DNA from: an uncultured Bacteroidota bacterium
GTDB taxonomy: Bacteria > Bacteroidota > Bacteroidia > Chitinophagales > Chitinophagaceae
Assembly (NCBI GenBank): GCA_903819975.1
Contig: CAIJFI010000008.1
Coordinates: forward strand, 1-64,000
Direction: 5' to 3'
Length of the DNA stretch: 64,000 bases
Part shown: positions 473-7,514 of the stretch, in pieces
Layout of the letters: each line of letters begins with the position of its first letter
Numbering within the stretch: position 1 is the stretch's first letter
Translations under genes and position numbers: made by a program
Notes under the pieces: model-generated
The model's database searches: none
Told to the model about the DNA's origin: nothing
What the model saw: the letters and a program-made list of their open reading frames with translations, nothing else

Positions 473-1534
473 TTAATATAGTTTATAATATAAATCCCAA
501 TTAATATTATCTTTCGGACTTCTTTCTCCTGTTATATTTTTTGCTAACGAATCTAAAGATGTTTTTGAATTTAGTGCACTTTCATAGTCTTGGATATAAT
601 TAGCAAAAAACAATATATAATCCTTCTTATCCCTATAAGAATAACTGTTTATTTCAAAGAATTTATATATAGCATGATCAATAACCTTTTTTGGAAATCT
701 TGGTGGTATACAAAGTTTTACTTTTTTTTCTAATGGTTTTGCAGGTATTACTAAACCATTAGAAAATATCATATCAACCTCGTCTTTTGTTAAAATGGGT
801 TTGAACTGATTATTAATAGATTTTTCAAATTGTTCTTTAAATAAGAAAGAGAAGAAGTGTTTAATTTCATCTATACTCATTTTACCATCAATCGTTTTAC
901 TTTTTTTAGCTTCCCAATGATCTTCTATAAGATTACTAGTATTTTCTACACTATCTATTTCTACTACATCTTCTTTATCAATTAAGGCCAGATTAATATT
1001 ATTTACTTTAATCCATTGCAGTATTTTGTCATTTATTGACGGCAAAAGATAGGAAATGCTGTCTTTTGATGTTAATCTATGAAGGAAGTAACCATATTCT
1101 TCTTTGTTGCCATAATAGTTATCACATAATTGAAAGTCTAAAAATTCTTTAATATTAGCCTTTAAAGAATAGAGTTCGATCAATTTTAATCCAAAAAGTA
1201 CCTGAAATTGTTCATCATTTACATAAGCTCTACTAAAGTTTAGATTTTTATCCAAATCATAGAAGTCCCCTTCATAGCCAAAGAAATCTGGCACCACATT
1301 ATTTGAACTATTTTCCTCCTCCAATCTTAAGTATTTTTCATAATATCCTTCCTTTTCTTGTGTGATTGGCTTTCTTAAGAATGGAGCAACCTCAGAATTA
1401 ATCACTGCTTGTTTTAGGACGCTGAATATATATTGGGCATCAATTGGCACTACCTTATTCTCAATCAATTTATTTGCAAAGTGTTTTAATGAAGATAGTT
1501 CTATATGGTAGTCAATTTCTTGAGGGTAGTTCAT
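473..1534 (-). CDS. Hypothetical protein, accessory region
   Basis: A 353-residue acidic, soluble-looking protein with no signal peptide. I recognise no family. The C-terminal third, with a CIPPRFPKK stretch and an aromatic-rich end, looks like a folded helical domain. The frame extends to 1591, but a TATTTTTG -7 box on the minus strand at 1559-1552 lies inside that extension and 18 bases before the ATG at 1534, so the downstream start is preferred. It is divergent from the zinc-ribbon gene at 1797, with a palindrome-rich intergenic region between. The lack of recognisable homology and its neighbours suggest mobile-element cargo; this is inference. Confidence 0.6.
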   Translation of the reverse strand: MNYPQEIDYHIELSSLKHFANKLIENKVVPIDAQYIFSVLKQAVINSEVAPFLRKPITQEKEGYYEKYLRLEEENSSNNVVPDFFGYEGDFYDLDKNLNFSRAYVNDEQFQVLFGLKLIELYSLKANIKEFLDFQLCDNYYGNKEEYGYFLHRLTSKDSISYLLPSINDKILQWIKVNNINLALIDKEDVVEIDSVENTSNLIEDHWEAKKSKTIDGKMSIDEIKHFFSFLFKEQFEKSINNQFKPILTKDEVDMIFSNGLVIPAKPLEKKVKLCIPPRFPKKVIDHAIYKFFEINSYSYRDKKDYILFFANYIQDYESALNSKTSLDSLAKNITGERSPKDNINWDLYYKLY

Positions 1535-1551
1535 GCGGTTAATTTTAACAA

Positions 1552-1559
1552 CAAAAATA
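1552..1559 (-). promoter_or_regulatory. -7 promoter box TATTTTTG
   Basis: The minus strand reads TATTTTTG here, matching the Bacteroidota -7 consensus TAnnTTTG, 18 bases upstream of the ATG at 1534. No clear -33 element was found at the usual distance. Confidence 0.4.
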
Positions 1560-1692
1560 CTGATAAACCAGCTCAAAAAAGGCCATGTCAATATCTTATT
1601 ATTATACCAAATATTATGTGAAATATGATGTCTTATAAAATATCAAAAGGGGAAATGTCATTTTCTAAGATAATATTATAGCAAAATAAGCA

Positions 1693-1721
1693 TACGTCGA
1701 CGACGTACACAACGTATACGT
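1693..1721. promoter_or_regulatory. Paired palindromes, possible operator
   Basis: TACGTCG-A-CGACGTA (1693-1707) is a perfect 7-bp inverted repeat, followed five bases later by the perfect palindrome ACGTATACGT (1712-1721). Both are GC-rich islands in a very AT-rich intergenic region between divergent genes. Likely roles are a regulator binding site or a recombination core; neither can be decided here. Confidence 0.4.
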
Positions 1722-1796
1722 TTTTTGAATATAAATCAATGATATCAATGGTTTTATTAAAAGACAGAATTAGTTTTGCTTTTTAAACCAAAGGAT

Positions 1797-2159
1797 ATGA
1801 AAATTGATGAAATAAGATTATGTGAATATTGTCATGGGGTTATTCCAGACACACGTAATAAGAACAGTAAATATTGTTGCGACACCTGTTACTGTAAAAA
1901 CAAGGCTGAGATAGCTATTGATATGCAAAAAAAGAAAGTACATGCACTCCTGATTTTAATGAATGATGAGATAATACATGATCTGTATTTAAAGTATGAG
2001 TCAAAATTCTACATCAATGCAAAGGAGCTGATTGACAGAGGCTTTAATTGGACAATTTACAATGCATCAATCATTATAAACAATTTGCCAGCCAAGTCAC
2101 TTATTCGATATGGCTATACTCTATTTAATAACCAATCTGTTCAACTATGGAAACTTTAA
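1797..2159 (+). CDS. Zinc-ribbon hypothetical protein
   Basis: A 120-residue protein starting at the ATG at 1797, which has AAGGAT just in front; a TTG seven codons upstream is possible but less likely. Near the N terminus CEYC and, about 15 residues later, CCDTC form two Cys pairs typical of a zinc ribbon. The rest is helical with no other motif seen; a short wHTH-like fold in the second half cannot be excluded. The 3' end overlaps the next gene by 13 bases, so the two are translationally linked. Exact function unknown; small zinc-ribbon proteins in compact sets like this often belong to phages or plasmids. Confidence 0.6.
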   Translation: MKIDEIRLCEYCHGVIPDTRNKNSKYCCDTCYCKNKAEIAIDMQKKKVHALLILMNDEIIHDLYLKYESKFYINAKELIDRGFNWTIYNASIIINNLPAKSLIRYGYTLFNNQSVQLWKL

Positions 2160-2383
2160 ATTCACTACTTTCAAATGATATAGGATACCTGAATGCTCTT
2201 AGGCATGCTCCAGCAGTTCCACCACCAGCATCTGCGGCAATACCACCTGCTGATATTAAATTACCTGCCAAAAAATTCAAGATCCCAAATTGGGGATGGA
2301 TTTTAGTAGGGTTAGGATTATCTGCTTTCGTAGTGTATAAATGGAGGCAGTATCAAGAAAAGAATAAATCTAAGAATATATAA
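2147..2383 (+). CDS. Small single-span membrane protein
   Basis: A 78-residue protein. Residues about 22-42 are an Ala/Pro-rich linker (APAVPPPASAAIPP), followed by a basic stretch and one membrane segment (WGWILVGLGLSAFVVY) near residues 49-65, then a charged tail. It starts inside the zinc-ribbon gene, and the next gene begins four bases after its stop, so the three form one unit. Architecture resembles small virion or conjugation membrane proteins but no family is recognisable. Confidence 0.55.
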   Translation: METLNSLLSNDIGYLNALRHAPAVPPPASAAIPPADIKLPAKKFKIPNWGWILVGLGLSAFVVYKWRQYQEKNKSKNI

Positions 2384-2386
2384 GCT

Positions 2387-2686
2387 TTGGACATTTCAAA
2401 TCAAATATTACTTAGCGGCATAACTCCGAATCAATTGGTTGAACTATTAAGACCAATGATAAGGGAAGAGGTGCGCCTTGTAATGTCTGAACAGGAAGAG
2501 AAGCTGATTTCACCTGCTGAAGCATGTAAATTATTTAAACCTGCTATTACTAAAGCGACATTAACCTCATGGACGGAGAAGGGTTGGCTTCAATTACATA
2601 GGATAGGAGGAAGGAATTTTTACCTCCAGTCTGAGATATTAGCAAGTACTTTGAAGCTAGGGAAGTATAGGAGTCTTTGTGCGTAG
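2387..2686 (+). CDS. Excisionase-like helix-turn-helix protein
   Basis: A 99-residue protein with a TTG start at 2387, four bases after the previous stop. Residues about 40-90 (LISPAEACKLFKP, then TLTSWTEKGWLQLHRIGGRNFYL) have the layout of the MerR/excisionase-type HTH: helix, turn, recognition helix with a Trp, then a GGRxFY wing. Such proteins act as excision directionality factors or small regulators in mobile elements. A short hairpin with a T run follows. No integrase is visible in the window. Confidence 0.6.
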   Translation: MDISNQILLSGITPNQLVELLRPMIREEVRLVMSEQEEKLISPAEACKLFKPAITKATLTSWTEKGWLQLHRIGGRNFYLQSEILASTLKLGKYRSLCA

Positions 2687-2705
2687 AATAATGTAGGGTG
2701 TTTAT

Positions 2706-2726
2706 TCAGTATTAGTACTGATTTTT
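2706..2726 (+). terminator. Short rho-independent terminator
   Basis: Perfect 6-bp arms TCAGTA and TACTGA with the 4-base loop TTAG, then five T. It lies 20 bases after the excisionase-like gene and closes the three-gene set. Confidence 0.45.
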
Positions 2727-2856
2727 AGAACTTAAATAATTTTTATTTTGCATTATAATTACAAAATATATCCTGTATGGTAGTAATTCGAGTTTCAGCC
2801 ATGTTATATTTGAGATTAAAAATTTTTGGTGACATGAAAACTTTAACAAAGACATA

Positions 2857-4380
2857 ATGAAAGTATTACTTGATACGAATATTATCATTCACAGAGAAGC
2901 CAGCAAGATTTACAACCTTGACATTGGACAGCTTTTCAATTGGCTCGACAAACTTAAATACGACAAATACATTCACCCATTGACAATTCAGGAGTTAAAC
3001 CGTTTTAAAGACCCCGACTCCTTGAAAACTATGAACATAAAAATTGAAAGTTACAATCAATTAAAACATCAAGCACCTTTAAGTGACACTATTAAACAAA
3101 TAAGCCAACAAGTTGACAGCCAAGAAAACGACCTTAATGACACACAAATACTAAACGAAGTTTTTGAAAATAGAGTTGATATACTGATTTCGGAAGACAA
3201 AAAAATACTAACGAAAGCAAAACTTCTAGGAATAAACGATAGAGTTTTTCGTATTGAAACATTTTTAGAAAAGGTGACTGCTGAAAATCCTCAATTAGTA
3301 AAGCATAAAGTTTTAGCAGTTAAAAAAATTGACTTTGCAGAAGTTGACTTAAAAGACAGCTTCTTTGACAGTTTTAGAAATGATTATACTCCGTTTGACA
3401 AATGGTTTAACAGCAAAGCAGAACAACCTTGTTATGTTTGTTATAGCGAAAACAAACTGACTGCTTTCTTGTATATAAAAATTGAAAAGGCAGGAGAAGA
3501 ATCATATAGTGAAATAACACCTATTTTCAAACCTAAGAAACGACTGAAAATAGGAACTCTTAAAGTAACTGGTAACGGCTATAAAATTGGAGAACGGTTT
3601 TTAAAAACAATCTTTGACAATGCTCTTTTGTTCAAGGTAGAAGAAATTTATGTAACTATTTTTGACAAAAGACCCGAACAAGAGCAACTCATTGAAATGT
3701 TGGAAGAATGGGGCTTTAAGAAATACGGGATTAAAACTACGCAAAACGGAGACGAATTAGTTTATGTTAGAGAGTTTAGCAAAAATCTACCTGTAAACAT
3801 TGAAAATCCCAAACTTACATTTCCATTCTTTTCAAGAGAAACAGACAAATATTTAATAAGAATAGAACCACAATATCATACAGAACTGTTTCCTGACAGC
3901 ATCAACACAAGAGAAGACAAGGCAAAATATATCGAGAATGAACCGCACAGAAACAGAATAAGTAAAGTTTATATTTCTCATTCACAAGACAGAAATTTAA
4001 AGTCAGGAGACATTGCCCTGATTTATCGAATTGGCGAAAAATCACCCAAGACATACTCAAGTACCGTAACGACAATTTGCATTGTAGAAAGTGTTAAAGA
4101 CAACTTTAAGGACTTTGACGATTTTTTTAATAGTTGCAATAGGAGGACAATGATTTCAAAACTGGATTTGAAAACAAAGTGGTGGGACAAATTTCCAGAA
4201 TACAAACCTTTTGTAATCAATTTTCTATATGCTCACTCTTTGCCGACACCAAAACCAACACTTGGTGATTTGATTAAATTAAAAATATTCGCAGATCCAA
4301 TGAGTTTAACCAAAGGATTTACTAAATTGACCAACGAACAGTTTAACGATTTGATTAACTTTGCCTACAGCAAGAAATAA
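2857..4380 (+). CDS. PIN-GNAT-PUA-like multidomain protein
   Basis: 507 residues in three parts. Residues 1-140 are a PIN nuclease domain with all four acidic positions visible: D6 in LLDTN, E46, D95 and D114 in the SEDKKIL motif. Residues about 190-308 look like a GNAT acetyltransferase fold, with GNGYKIGERFL as the acyl-CoA loop and EEWGFKKYG as the usual GNAT end. Residues about 330-505 begin YLIRIEPQYHTELFPD and resemble an EVE/ASCH (PUA-like) nucleotide-binding domain. An ASCH protein follows six bases downstream. Asp is mostly GAC here, unlike neighbouring genes, which suggests transfer. PIN domains cut RNA, so an RNA-directed toxin or defence role is inferred; substrate unknown. Confidence 0.7.
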   Translation: MKVLLDTNIIIHREASKIYNLDIGQLFNWLDKLKYDKYIHPLTIQELNRFKDPDSLKTMNIKIESYNQLKHQAPLSDTIKQISQQVDSQENDLNDTQILNEVFENRVDILISEDKKILTKAKLLGINDRVFRIETFLEKVTAENPQLVKHKVLAVKKIDFAEVDLKDSFFDSFRNDYTPFDKWFNSKAEQPCYVCYSENKLTAFLYIKIEKAGEESYSEITPIFKPKKRLKIGTLKVTGNGYKIGERFLKTIFDNALLFKVEEIYVTIFDKRPEQEQLIEMLEEWGFKKYGIKTTQNGDELVYVREFSKNLPVNIENPKLTFPFFSRETDKYLIRIEPQYHTELFPDSINTREDKAKYIENEPHRNRISKVYISHSQDRNLKSGDIALIYRIGEKSPKTYSSTVTTICIVESVKDNFKDFDDFFNSCNRRTMISKLDLKTKWWDKFPEYKPFVINFLYAHSLPTPKPTLGDLIKLKIFADPMSLTKGFTKLTNEQFNDLINFAYSKK

Positions 4381-4385
4381 GAAAA

Positions 4386-4763
4386 ATGAAAGTAGTATTA
4401 TCAATAAAACCAGAGTTTGCGTTCAAGATTTTTGACGGGACAAAGAAGTTTGAATTTAGGAAGTCAATTTTCAGAAATGTGAATATAAAATCAGTAATAG
4501 TATACGCTTCGTCGCCTATTCAACAAGTAATTGGAGAATTTGAAATTGATGAAGTTTTAAATTATGACCTTTCTACACTTTGGGACTTAACACAGGAATA
4601 TTCAGGCATCAGCGAGGAATTTTATTACGATTACTTCGCAAACAAAGAACAAGGTTTTGCAATTAAAATCAAAAAGACAAGAAAGTATAGAAAGCCAAAA
4701 TGTTTGAAGGAGGACTTTAACCTATCTCCACCACAATCATTTGCATACTGGACTGCCAAATGA
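4386..4763 (+). CDS. ASCH domain protein
   Basis: 125 residues that are essentially one ASCH domain: MKVVLSIKPEFAFKIFDGTKKFEFRK carries the family's GxKxxExR motif (G18, K20, E23, R25) near the N terminus, and the fold continues through VIVYASSPIQQVIGEFEI. ASCH is a PUA-like fold that binds RNA or modified nucleotides. The start is six bases after the PIN-GNAT stop, so the two genes are almost certainly one operon. A partner or antidote role is inferred only from context. Confidence 0.75.
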   Translation: MKVVLSIKPEFAFKIFDGTKKFEFRKSIFRNVNIKSVIVYASSPIQQVIGEFEIDEVLNYDLSTLWDLTQEYSGISEEFYYDYFANKEQGFAIKIKKTRKYRKPKCLKEDFNLSPPQSFAYWTAK

Positions 4764-4841
4764 GAAACACATTTGCAAACACAGGCTATGCGTCATGAGG
4801 TGACGTGCGAACTTGTAGCTTTTTGCTTAATTCAAGTTATC

Positions 4842-4905
4842 TGCAGGTTGGCAGTTTGGAGCTCCGAAACCCACCAAAACGCAATGACTGAAAACCATAC
4901 CTGCA
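4842..4905. repeat. Spaced inverted repeat between ASCH gene and decayed ORF
   Basis: TGCAGGT at 4842-4848 is matched by ACCTGCA at 4899-4905, with about 50 bases between. The surrounding 160 bases are non-coding and richer in G+C than the flanks. The long spacing is more like a recombination site or an RNA element than a terminator. Confidence 0.3.
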
Positions 4906-4924
4906 ACAACATCGAAATCTATAA

Positions 4925-5224
4925 CTGCTTGACAAAGTTCAAAACTTTATAAAGTTTGCAGACATTAAAATCAATGTTTTGCTTATAATTAGTGGTGTAA
5001 CAACAACATTTATATTAACTAATTTTGAAGAACTTTTTGAATTGTGTCATATTTCTAAAATAACGCTTGGACTATTCCTCGTTTTATTTTTAGTATTCAT
5101 TGTTTTTTCGATTTTGACCATTTCGCCCAGAAAAGACAATCATACAAGGAATTCAGTACTAATACTAATTTATTTGTATAAATTAAAAATCAGTATAAGT
5201 ACCATTGTTTCACAATATTTTTGA
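4925..5224 (+). pseudogene. Fragment resembling a Pycsar-type membrane effector
   Basis: The frame opens just after a stop at 4922 and has no ATG near its start; a TTG at 4979 is the first plausible start. It encodes a FIKFADIKINVLL stretch, one membrane helix, a polar loop, a second helix (LFLVLFLVFIVFSILTI) and SPRK. This order, a helix with FADxK, two membrane spans, then a Pro-Arg, is that of the DUF5706/PycTM family of cyclic-nucleotide-triggered membrane effectors. The 3' part then loses family resemblance, and no cyclase gene is present. I read it as a truncated, probably inactive remnant. An unrelated small membrane protein is possible. Confidence 0.4.
4942..4957. repeat. Perfect 16-bp palindrome
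   Basis: AAACTTTATAAAGTTT reads the same on both strands. It lies inside the open frame of the decayed membrane-effector fragment and before its possible TTG start, so it may be an operator or promoter-proximal site. Chance is not excluded in AT-rich DNA. Confidence 0.3.
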
Positions 5225-5250
5225 TTCTAATTTCAATGAAAAATATCAAA

Positions 5251-6006
5251 ATGAAAAAACAACTATTACTCATTAATTTAATTGTATTTTTTTTATTTTC
5301 AAGTTGTTTTAAACAGACTTCTAGTAGTGCAATAGATCAATTAAATGAAATTAAAAGTACCGTTGGATCTGAAGGCGAAATTAAAATTAACAATTCAATT
5401 GTAAAATCTAATGTTACAACAAATAGTATTGATAATCCAACAATTAACATCGGAAAAAATCTTAGTTTAAAGGAGTTTAAGGATGCGTATAAAAGTTTAA
5501 AGGAAAATCGAAAAAAAGAATTTCAATTAACAAATATTCATTATTCTAAAGACACAGTATTAAAACATGATTCTGCGAGTTCCATAAAAATTAAACCTTT
5601 TGATTTAATGTATGATGAAGGTGAAAATCCTGGTATAAGGCCTGCCGGGTATTATACGATAACAAACTATAGTTCTATATTACAAAATAATAATGGAAAT
5701 AGTTCGTTATTTAGTAACATGGTACTAGTATTTAATACCAATAACCTTGGAATGGTAATTGGGACTCCTTCAATATATTATACTAGTGTTAATTTATTCA
5801 CTTGGAATCAACTATACGTTTCGCCAATTGCCTTTGATCCTAATACCCATATTTCAACATTTACAATTTCAGGAACTTCAACTTTTGGCATCTCTCTTGG
5901 CGGATCACTTTTGGGATGGGTATCTCCACAATCTTTTCAAGTTAGCATTAATATGGATGCAAACTCATCTTGGTTGGATAGGATAATTGATATAACAACA
6001 CCATAA
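5251..6006 (+). CDS. Hypothetical lipoprotein
   Basis: From the ATG at 5251 the protein is 251 residues; upstream TTG (5221) and ATG (5236) only add a short tail before the signal peptide. The N terminus MKKQLLLINLIVFFLFSSC is a lipoprotein signal with Cys at the lipobox. The mature part begins with a polar, helical region, then becomes Ser/Thr/Asn-rich beta sequence (GISLGGSLLGWVSPQ), so it is probably a surface-exposed or periplasmic lipoprotein. No family recognised. A small membrane protein gene follows after five bases. Confidence 0.6.
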   Translation: MKKQLLLINLIVFFLFSSCFKQTSSSAIDQLNEIKSTVGSEGEIKINNSIVKSNVTTNSIDNPTINIGKNLSLKEFKDAYKSLKENRKKEFQLTNIHYSKDTVLKHDSASSIKIKPFDLMYDEGENPGIRPAGYYTITNYSSILQNNNGNSSLFSNMVLVFNTNNLGMVIGTPSIYYTSVNLFTWNQLYVSPIAFDPNTHISTFTISGTSTFGISLGGSLLGWVSPQSFQVSINMDANSSWLDRIIDITTP

Positions 6007-6011
6007 TTTTT

Positions 6012-6245
6012 ATGAATATTAAATTTCAAGAATTAATTTTCTTATTACTACTATTTATATTTTTTTGTTATGTTTTAAAATATTTTTTAATTTTTTTAGA
6101 ATACACTCTTAATATTAAGTGGATTAATAATTTCAAAAAAATTATTATAATATCGTTTGTTATTTATATTTTCCTGATTACAATTACCTTGTTAACAAGA
6201 GAGCAAAGAAATAGTAAAAAAATAGAATTTAAGAAATATAGTTAA
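6012..6245 (+). CDS. Small two-span membrane protein
   Basis: 77 residues, two hydrophobic helices (ELIFLLLLFIFFCYVLKYFLIF and IIIISFVIYIFLITITLL) separated by a short basic loop, and a Lys-rich C terminus. It follows the lipoprotein by five bases, so the pair may be co-expressed. No family recognised; immunity-type or transport accessory roles are possible but unsupported. Confidence 0.45.
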   Translation: MNIKFQELIFLLLLFIFFCYVLKYFLIFLEYTLNIKWINNFKKIIIISFVIYIFLITITLLTREQRNSKKIEFKKYS

Positions 6246-6620
6246 GTCTAAATCGTTTGCAATTAGTGAACAAAATTGTTTACGAACTATAAAATAGAAT
6301 CTATCACATTTTAACTAGAAGTAAATAATAGATAAAAAATCAATATGAATGACTAATTTTTCATACTAACTATCTTAGAGTCTTATAATATTTCCAATTT
6401 ACTGCATATAATAACCTCTAAGCGTATTAAAATTTGAATAATCAAAAAATTAATTAAAATCATTTTCTATTATATCTATATGAGTTCTAATCTATGTGTT
6501 ATAGGGAAAAACAGACTATTTTAATTTATTTGTGACTTTATTAGTTTTCGAAAACAAATTCTTTGAAATCAAACCAATTCTCAATCAAATACCCACCCTT
6601 TTTTAAGTTGAATTAATTTT
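6246..6620. other. AT-rich region without a convincing gene
   Basis: No long frame and no RNA signal seen. On the minus strand at about 6606-6541 a short frame ends GGYLIENWFDFKEF before a stop, which may be the tail of a lost gene, but it is only about 20 codons. Confidence 0.4.
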
Positions 6621-6647
6621 AGTGTCACCTATAGTGTCACCTGACAC
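6621..6647. repeat. Direct repeat with overlapping inverted repeat
   Basis: AGTGTCACCT occurs at 6621-6630 and again at 6633-6642. The second copy starts a perfect hairpin GTGTCA-CC-TGACAC (6634-6647). It sits between the accessory island and the terminator of the tRNA-like gene, where an integration junction would be expected. Confidence 0.4.
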
Positions 6648-6653
6648 AAATAA

Positions 6654-6696
6654 AAAAGCTCCTAAAAGATTTATTATCAATCTAATAGGAGCTTTT
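6654..6696 (-). terminator. Terminator of the tRNA-like RNA
   Basis: 10-bp arms AAAAGCTCCT (6654-6663) and AGGAGCTTTT (6687-6696), with a second inner pairing AGATT/AATCT. On the minus strand the hairpin is followed by TTTTTTATTT, a typical rho-independent end for the RNA gene at 6702-6865. It may also work for the plus strand. Confidence 0.75.
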
Positions 6697-6701
6697 AATT
6701 G

Positions 6702-6865
6702 CTGTAGGGGGAGGGCTCGAACCTCCATGAGGCAGTTAGTTGTAGCACAAAGTTCAGTGGTCGACCCTGGTCGCCTATTGCTAGACGGCTCTATGCTATA
6801 TTTATCCCGTTATCCCCACCCCCGAGACAAGGGGGCATGTATGCCAAGATTTCATCACCCCACAG
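6702..6865 (-). ncRNA. tRNA-like RNA with long insert
   Basis: On the minus strand CTGTGGGG (6865-6858) can pair with CCCTACAG (6709-6702), a 7-8 bp acceptor-like stem with one G-U. Next comes a D-arm-like part (ATG paired with CAT, GG at the loop), close to class II Leu tRNAs, then a perfect 5-bp stem CCCCC/GGGGG (6835-6831 and 6823-6819) around the loop TTGTCTC, then 92 unpaired-by-template bases, then a T arm GGAGG-TTCGAGC-CCTCC (6726-6710). The T loop fits the tRNA consensus. A strong terminator follows. A normal class II variable arm is under 25 bases, and the loop would give GUC, which does not fit Leu. No tmRNA tag frame is seen. It may be an interrupted tRNA or a novel structured RNA. 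Confidence 0.5.
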
Positions 6866-7025
6866 TATTAAGAACTTATCATTTGAGCACGGTAGCCATT
6901 GTTTTCCCCTCATTTGATATATCAAAACTAAGGTAATGCCCTATATGTTGCAAATATTTTAAGTATTATTTTTAAAATATAGAAATTATTTAATAATTTG
7001 CTCATATATTTAAAATCATACAAAT

Positions 7026-7514
7026 ATGGAGCCAAAAAATAATGCCAAATTAAACGTTGACAAAAGCTTAGATAAGCTGGATTTGCAAATAATTCAAGCA
7101 ATGATGCAGGATGCCGAAGTTTCTTATGCCGACCTTGGAAAGCAGTTTTTTGTATCGGGAGGTACGATTCACGTACGTATTAAAAAATTGGAGGAATTGG
7201 GTATTGTACAAGGTAAAAGACTAGCTGTAGATTTAAAAGTCCTTGGCTACGATATAATTGCATTCATCGGGATATATTTAGAAAAGAGTTCAATGTATGA
7301 TACGGTGGCTCAGGCATTAAAAGCAATTCCACAAGTGGTACGTGTAAATTATACAACAGGTAACTATAGCATGTTTGTTGAAATTGTTTGCAAAGACATT
7401 CAACAATTACGTTTTGTATTACATGATGAGTTGCAAAAAATAAAAGGAATTGAAAGAACAGAAACTTTAATTTCCTTGGAAGAAAGTTTTTCACGTAATG
7501 TAAGGATCGTATAA
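7026..7514 (+). CDS. Lrp/AsnC family transcriptional regulator
   Basis: 162 residues. Residues about 15-70 are an AsnC-type HTH (LDLQIIQAMMQ, DLGKQFFVSGGTIHVRIKKLEELGIV), followed by the LYS-type/RAM ligand domain (IAFIGIYLEK, VVRVNYTTGNYSMFVEIV). Lrp proteins are feast/famine regulators that sense amino acids or related metabolites as octamers. It lies 34 bases upstream of the molybdenum hydroxylase genes in the same direction, so it may control them; that link is inferred. The regulator starts just after the tRNA-like gene, so the island boundary is at about 6.9 kb. Confidence 0.9.
   Translation: MEPKNNAKLNVDKSLDKLDLQIIQAMMQDAEVSYADLGKQFFVSGGTIHVRIKKLEELGIVQGKRLAVDLKVLGYDIIAFIGIYLEKSSMYDTVAQALKAIPQVVRVNYTTGNYSMFVEIVCKDIQQLRFVLHDELQKIKGIERTETLISLEESFSRNVRIV

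Follow-up and report, generated by a model that had tools for sequence, protein, structure and literature searches.

A gene for a tRNA-like RNA, in which a large conserved domain (the V domain) stands in place of the usual variable arm, lies on the minus strand of the window (the whole stretch of 64,000 nucleotides analysed here). Judged from its sequence and those of its relatives, it is probably a dedicated non-decoding tRNA on which AspRS and GatCAB would make asparagine under AsnC-type control, a reading drawn from the conserved letters of the RNA and from its gene neighbours and co-occurrence, namely an AsnC-like gene and gatB. Within the databases and literature searched, the RNA family is apparently undescribed; no paper describing it was found in the open-access literature, outside of which most subscription papers lie.

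All of the parts proposed in the initial annotation, that is, an acceptor stem, a Leu-like D arm, a GC anticodon stem, a T arm and a 92-base insert, were confirmed on the minus strand at 6865-6702 (Table 1), and the window copy also has T8-G9 (TG8-9) and G26. The mismatch between the GUC of the anticodon loop and a D arm of the Leu type is real, and is the main clue to the nature of the RNA. In the anticodon loop GTCTC is invariant and position 33 is variable. CCA is not encoded, and a C follows the discriminator, in the RNA as in 13 of the 14 own tRNA genes examined. The strong terminator claimed downstream was recovered as an inverted repeat with a T run, but a simple terminator scan lists nothing there. 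With promoter-like signals on one side and terminator-like signals on the other, the gene is likely to be a transcribed unit.

Table 1. Positions of the RNA gene, its parts and the adjoining features in the window
Feature	Position	Strand	Remarks
Terminator-like inverted repeat and T run	6654..6696 (arms 6654-6674/6676-6696)	minus	from the inverted-repeat listing and the letters
Whole tRNA-like RNA	6702..6865	minus	position -1 (C, 6865) to G73 (6702)
Discriminator G73	6702	minus	invariant
3' acceptor strand CCCTACA	6703..6709	minus	C71 and A72 (6703) invariant
T arm GGAGG-TTCGAGC-CCTCC	6710..6726	minus	pairs in alignments
92-nt variable region (V domain)	6818-6727	minus	from the anticodon arm to the T arm
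V-arm base stem, 3' strand CCTC	6729..6732	minus	covaries
Conserved internal loop of V domain, 3' side ACTAACTG	6733..6740	minus	from the alignment
Distal V domain: long helix and two small hairpins	6741..6800	minus	size varies among families
Conserved internal loop of V domain, 5' side ATAACGGGATAAA	6801..6813	minus	from the alignment
V-arm base stem, 5' strand GGGG	6814..6817	minus	covaries
Anticodon arm CCCCC-TTGTCTC-GGGGG	6819..6835	minus	loop TTGTCTC at 6830-6824
Leu-like D arm	6837..6855	minus	3-bp stem ATG/CAT; loop GG, then C, A
5' acceptor strand TGTGGGG	6858..6864	minus	U1 (6864) and G2 invariant
GTTCTT	6870..6875	minus	enriched near the RNA start in divergent regions
TAGTTTTG, fits TANNTTTG	6923..6930	minus	enriched upstream of the RNA
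AAATATTT, possible regulator site	6952..6959		enriched in divergent regions
Lrp/AsnC-family regulator, divergent to the RNA, nearest to E. coli AsnC	7026..7514	plus	PF13404 and PF01037 over cut-off

The usual finders are silent on this gene. ARAGORN reports no tRNA or tmRNA in the window and Rfam nothing at the gathering score; at E ≤ 10, a 391-nt region gave only chance-like Rfam matches, the top one of which lies on the terminator. A tmRNA identity was rejected, as no RF00023 match and no tag reading frame were found and the genome has its own tmRNA elsewhere (G000:C2:98082-98454), and so was a group I intron in a tRNA, for which Rfam gave no intron-core match; both absences had also been noted from the letters. 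The folding of the single sequence is slightly better than that of shuffled versions (z = -1.62, with 10 of the 200 shuffles equally good), and proof of the RNA must therefore be comparative.

Among 60 genomes searched by blastn, 29 of the 37 genus members (the window's own genome among them) match at E < 1e-15, three of the matches being cut by contig ends (G024, G031 and G032) and one having an internal deletion (G034), and weaker matches occur in other families. In the 117-nt copy of G034 (L060:1451-1567), the V domain is incomplete, and the 5' side of its internal loop is among what is missing. In an alignment of 14 sequences, a structure of 25 pairs (acceptor with -1:73, eight; D, three; anticodon, five; V base, four; T, five) is formed in 350 of 350 cells, eight of the pairs have changed on both sides, and the covariation score is 0.360, versus 0.184 in shuffles; slid versions of the structure pair in 51-69% of the cells. 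An alignment from a pattern scan, which was fitted to the model, has 107 distinct rows with 98.4% of 2652 cells paired and 13 pairs changed on both sides. Pairing fails there mostly at -1:73, in 17 rows, and at one pair each of the anticodon stem (16 rows) and the D stem (9 rows), and -1:73 is therefore not a strict pair.

The 4-bp base stem of the V arm covaries and is paired in every readable row, the shortest copies included, from which it follows that the 92-nt domain belongs to the RNA. The CTAA of the internal loop is kept in 94 of 105 copies, and the part beyond this loop varies: in the window copy it is a branched structure of about 60 nt, and in G052 the second copy has just a short hairpin there. 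Altogether, the copies found by the pattern scan are 109-197 nt long. Tandem pairs of copies occur in G037 and G052, and five consecutive copies were seen in Phaeodactylibacter xiamenensis (L226:311-1052). Of the three natures offered in the initial annotation, a new structured RNA is supported by the conservation and covariation, the stems and the V-arm base being kept in relatives. A relic is ruled out by the compensatory changes and the conservation across many families, and an interrupted tRNA is not supported, given the base stem, which is paired in every readable row of alignment A3, even in copies of 109-114 nt. On this comparative evidence, the gene is a real tRNA-like RNA with a conserved V domain, and neither a relic nor an interrupted tRNA.

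A first set of 54 distinct copies shows no variation at U1, G2, T8, G9, the GG of the D loop, TTCGA, GUCUC (34-38), C71, A72 and G73. For the identity counts in the copies from the pattern scan, duplicates were removed along with any row that was shorter than 100 nt or lacked GTCTC, which left 105 of 110 rows in A3 and 56 of 115 in A4. When the acceptor stem was left free in the scan pattern, U1 was found in 104 of 105 distinct copies, and G2, C71, A72 and G73 in all 105. According to PMC9976931, in the portion consulted, the strong determinants of Asp identity are G73, G34, U35, C36 and C38, with G2-C71 a minor one, whereas amidation is conferred by U1-A72 and is blocked in tRNA-Asp by G1-C72 and U20a; the G1-C72 of bacterial tRNA-Asp is also called crucial for Asp identity there. 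All five strong AspRS determinants are present in the 54 copies, and so is the GatCAB pair U1-A72, whose two letters also have the near-complete counts given above for the pattern-scan copies. The G1-C72 of bacterial tRNA-Asp is absent from all 54, and since U1-A72 takes the place of a pair called crucial for Asp identity, this counts against easy charging with aspartate. U20a is likewise lacking: the second place after the D-loop GG is A in 54 of 54 copies, by a 20a numbering that is our own (in the pattern-scan copies, the A after GG-C is set by the pattern itself). The genome's own tRNA-Asp has G1-C72 and its own tRNA-Asn has U1-A72; both have the D loop GGTTA, versus GGCA in the tRNA-like RNA, and its tRNA-Ser genes also carry G73.

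The canonical marks of a cloverleaf (T8, G18G19 and a TTCRA T loop) are present in 54 of 54 copies, and decoding tRNAs need, besides, U33 and a purine at position 37. Position 33 is T in 44 distinct copies, C in nine and G in one, and position 37 is T in all 54. With U33 lost in some copies and U at position 37 in all, the RNA seems unlikely to be used for decoding. An ordinary tRNA-Asp is also present in the window's genome.

Covariance model R1 gave strong matches (E < 1e-14) in 238 of the 396 order genomes; in a draw of 396 genomes from the class, 72 had such matches. At E ≤ 0.01 the model matches 287 of the 396 order genomes, apparent ordinary tRNA genes included; the 49 of these 287 genomes with matches only at E ≥ 1e-14, most of these matches having the length of ordinary tRNA genes, were not scored as carriers, and some of the matches, such as those in G394 (4.2e-11) and G572 (108 nt), may be diverged copies. 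A DNA pattern scan over one genome per species (84,980 species) found at least 120 matching stretches. Among the 80 matches listed, 79 are Bacteroidota by title and one is an Ignavibacteriales MAG (NCBI phylum Ignavibacteriota), and 23 of the 80 loci have at least two RNA copies. The listed carriers include Chitinophaga (Chitinophaga pinensis), Niabella, Pedobacter, Sphingobacterium, Algoriphagus, Cyclobacterium, Spirosoma and Dyadobacter. On the 3' side of the RNA (473-6640 in the window), gene order differs among the genomes of the genus and the regulator side is conserved, as though elements integrated preferentially at the 3' end of the RNA, in the manner known for tRNA genes. A relative of a small HTH protein encoded there (2387-2686) lies on the same side of the RNA in G034 (L071).

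The conserved neighbour of the RNA is an AsnC-like gene. The closest solved chain to the product of 7026-7514 is E. coli AsnC (E = 1.4e-34), and its best model is the NCBIfam AsnC equivalog, with 159.7 bits, below the curated 227 bits. Such a gene lies upstream in divergent orientation in 47 of 53 loci (L081-L133), at 112-387 nt from the listed RNA copy, in 13 of 15 longer neighbourhoods and in the window; at L078, a 142-aa frame lies between it and the RNA. Among the 80 matches listed, a set that shares four identical elements with the 53 loci, it has this arrangement in 50, including the Ignavibacteriales locus, and is missing from 30, three of which have too little sequence. In E. coli, according to the part of PMC8707732 consulted, asnA is activated by AsnC, an effect that asparagine dampens, and the regulator is cited as divergent to its target.

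Three short signals recur in the divergent regions. In 86 such regions, which are related sequences, TANNTTTG, presumably the Bacteroidota -7 box, lies 20-90 nt upstream of the RNA in 49 (shuffles, 6.5), GTTCTT lies within the last 45 nt before the RNA in 40 (shuffles, 0.7), and AAATATTT occurs in 46 (shuffles, 7.7). The GTTCTT, which we take to be boxA-like at 6870..6875, is at the same place in only four of 29 own tRNA genes; as for AAATATTT, it is our guess that it is the site of the AsnC-like regulator. An exact palindrome, TTTGATATATCAAA, was seen in the divergent region of the window (6926-6913), with a similar form in close relatives in the genus, and is not a common exact palindrome among the 86 regions.

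The presence of GatCAB, scored from gatB alone, tends to follow that of the RNA. Across the 396 genomes of the order, 231 have both, seven the RNA without gatB, 63 gatB without the RNA, and 95 neither, so that gatB occurs in 231 of 238 RNA-positive versus 63 of 158 RNA-negative genomes; Fisher values for this table take no account of descent. In the window's family (47 genera), the corresponding numbers are 110, one, four and 18 (gatB in 110 of 111 RNA-positive versus four of 22 RNA-negative genomes). Genera g27, g28, g31 and g50 mix carriers of the pair with genomes having neither; the concordance in the family is 128 of 133, a value reached in eight of 20000 trials when gatB was shuffled within genera. 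No gatB was found near the RNA in any of the 80 named loci examined.

In 28 chosen genomes, gatB was present in all 16 RNA-positive and in four of 12 RNA-negative ones. AsnRS is over cut-off in all 28 and GlnRS in 24, and decoding therefore does not explain GatCAB in most of them. The four genomes without GlnRS, all with gatB (RNA-negative G431 and G448, RNA-positive G482 and G594), need GatCAB for glutamine anyway, as we infer. The remaining RNA-negative chosen genomes with gatB are G019 and G025, which, like G001, were called RNA-negative from blastn only.

In the window's genome, neither asnA nor asnB was found at E ≤ 1e-20. Of 49 RNA-positive genomes tested, 39 have asnB over cut-off, five only below cut-off and five none, the AsnB-family genes of carriers being often in several copies and about 590-650 aa long; asnA was found in nine of 78 genomes tested. 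With an AsnB-family match in 39 of 49 carriers, and asnA in RNA-positive G054, G093 and G594, the RNA is not the sole possible source of asparagine in those genomes. Within the window's family, asnA occurs in four of 22 RNA-negative versus none of 37 RNA-positive genomes (Fisher 0.016, descent ignored), and in g27, g31 and g50 it is the genomes lacking both the RNA and gatB that have it (G304; G427; G308 and G322, respectively). It is also found in RNA-negative G466 and G460. This pattern would suit a replacement between asnA and the route with the RNA and gatB, but it is not exclusive. An AsnC-like gene was found beside none of the asnA loci of the nine genomes. Four genomes, G070, G250, G276 and G419, gave no strong RNA match and no gatB, asnA or asnB match, and are possible asparagine auxotrophs.

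The RNA is also encoded by viruses, 107 viral stretches matching its pattern. All 80 of those examined have a model match with GUCUC (78 complete, two cut by the stretch end), and the distinct viral copies have U1 in 56 of 56, and A72 and G73 in 54 of 54 readable ones. Neither an AsnC-like gene nor gatB was found in any of the 80 stretches, which are parts of contigs. Genes for tRNA or tmRNA accompany the RNA in 45 of the 80 stretches, at least five of them in 20, with tRNA-Asp in 13, tRNA-Asn in seven and tmRNA in six, and the RNA sits within stretches with as many as 26 (L302) and 20 (L335) such genes. Arrays of 14-26 tRNA genes that include the RNA were noted in L302, L335, L284, L293, L341 and L300, with a tmRNA in the first two. 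Since it sits among viral tRNA genes, tRNA-bringing viruses bring the tRNA-like RNA too; a role of the viral copy in protecting the asparagine supply is a guess. By blastn, the 164-nt window copy had no match in phage and plasmid records, nor had two viral copies in phage records or one Chitinophaga copy in plasmids.

In the mechanism we propose, the RNA would be matured like a tRNA, AspRS would read G34-U35-C36, C38 and G73 and attach aspartate to it, and GatCAB would recognise U1:A72 and amidate the RNA-bound aspartate to asparagine. Reading of Asp codons would be prevented by U37, by the loss of U33 and by the V domain, and the asparagine would then be released from the RNA or handed on. 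The AsnC-like protein would sense asparagine and set the RNA level, much as asnA is controlled by AsnC in E. coli. The asparagine reading is weakened by the 63 RNA-negative order genomes with gatB and the seven RNA-positive ones lacking it, by the AsnB-family genes of most tested carriers and the asnA of three, and by the viral stretches that carry the RNA with neither gatB nor regulator in the stretch. It is further weakened by the 30 of 80 loci without the AsnC-like gene, by the NCBIfam score below cut-off and by the asnA genes of nine genomes, which lack an AsnC-like neighbour.

Among the nearest known systems is the tRNA-dependent synthesis of asparagine in Bdellovibrio, Deinococcus and Thermus, in which a non-discriminating AspRS and GatCAB act on tRNA-Asn; the part of PMC4206432 consulted also counts 18 genera, Bacteroidetes among them, with AsnRS, GlnRS and GatCAB and no asparagine synthetase. 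As we propose here, AspRS and then GatCAB act there on a U1-A72 RNA while AsnRS and GlnRS are present, but the RNA of that account is the decoding tRNA-Asn (GUU), whereas here a separate GUC RNA has a large V domain and an anticodon loop unlike that of decoding tRNAs. As it carries the Asp anticodon GUC, an ordinary discriminating AspRS would presumably do here. The AsnC-asnA pair of E. coli, as described in the portion of PMC8707732 at hand, likewise has a divergent AsnC-type regulator with asparagine supply as the output (inferred in our case), but its target is an enzyme gene and ours an RNA gene under putative control. The non-proteinogenic tRNA-Gly of S. aureus is, in what we have of PMC4052509, also kept from translation for another use, but has the usual dimensions and shape of a tRNA, owes its escape to weak binding of EF-Tu, and serves another amino acid and use. 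A long variable arm and an unusual architecture are shared with tRNA-Sec, allo-tRNA and selC* tRNA-Cys, which, in the section of PMC7609411 consulted, have lengthened acceptor and anticodon stems; unlike these, the present RNA has acceptor and T stems of 7 + 5 bp, an anticodon stem of 5 bp and a V domain whose internal loop is conserved. With tmRNA (RF00023), it has in common a tRNA-like body, a stable RNA and a presence in viral tRNA arrays, but it has no tag reading frame and no match to that family.

Among other explanations, the one that survives best, though we consider it unlikely, is that the RNA carries Asp or Asn for some other tRNA-dependent reaction (envelope, lipid or peptide modification) and not for free asparagine. 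The same identity elements would serve, the carriers that also have AsnB-family genes would be accommodated, and tRNAs withheld from translation are known from the tRNA-Gly isoacceptors of S. aureus (PMC4052509, as far as consulted); however, the conserved neighbour is an AsnC-type amino-acid regulator, and no transferase gene was noticed adjoining the RNA in the neighbourhoods compared. Slightly less likely still is a tRNA-shaped regulatory RNA that pairs with mRNA through GUCUC, or acts as a decoy for AspRS, GatCAB or the regulator, with no need to deliver an amino acid. An invariant GUCUC in an exposed loop, the failure to keep U33 and the linked regulator gene would all agree with this, but it leaves the invariant U1:A72, G2:C71 and G73 and the link to gatB unexplained, unless the RNA is a decoy for AspRS or GatCAB. 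That the RNA accepts serine, or is some other class-II tRNA-like RNA, appears improbable: a long variable arm and G73, the latter shared with the genome's own tRNA-Ser genes, are features that SerRS reads (PMC7609411, in the part seen), and to that extent they weaken the asparagine reading, but GUC, C38, U1:A72 and the link to gatB are left without explanation. Even less probable is a role in decoding, with Asp codons read as Asp, or as Asn by programmed mistranslation, since the GUC anticodon and the place in viral tRNA arrays, which would fit it, are set against U37 in every copy, the loss of U33 in some, and an ordinary tRNA-Asp in the window's genome and in 13 of 80 viral stretches. As for an interrupted tRNA or a relic, to which the Leu-like D arm and the one relative with a shortened insert (L060) might point, the covariation, the wide conservation and the lack of a group I intron or tmRNA match in Rfam leave it hardly credible.

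Within the searches made, this would be an undescribed RNA family, found across several Bacteroidota orders, once in Ignavibacteriales, and in viral contigs. If the asparagine reading is true, the purpose of this tRNA is the production of an amino acid and not the reading of codons. The presence of GatCAB in bacteria that have AsnRS as well as GlnRS, which PMC4206432, in the portion consulted, calls possibly vestigial for some delta-proteobacteria, would also be explained, and the asparagine source of many environmental Bacteroidota would become directly testable. In its broadest form, to which we give about even chances, much of Bacteroidota would make all of its asparagine, or a share set by regulation, on a purpose-built non-decoding RNA with Asp identity and the amidation pair. 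This RNA would stand in the place of the enzyme gene of E. coli, controlled by a regulator of AsnC type that senses asparagine, and would be useful enough for tRNA-rich phages to carry copies of it.
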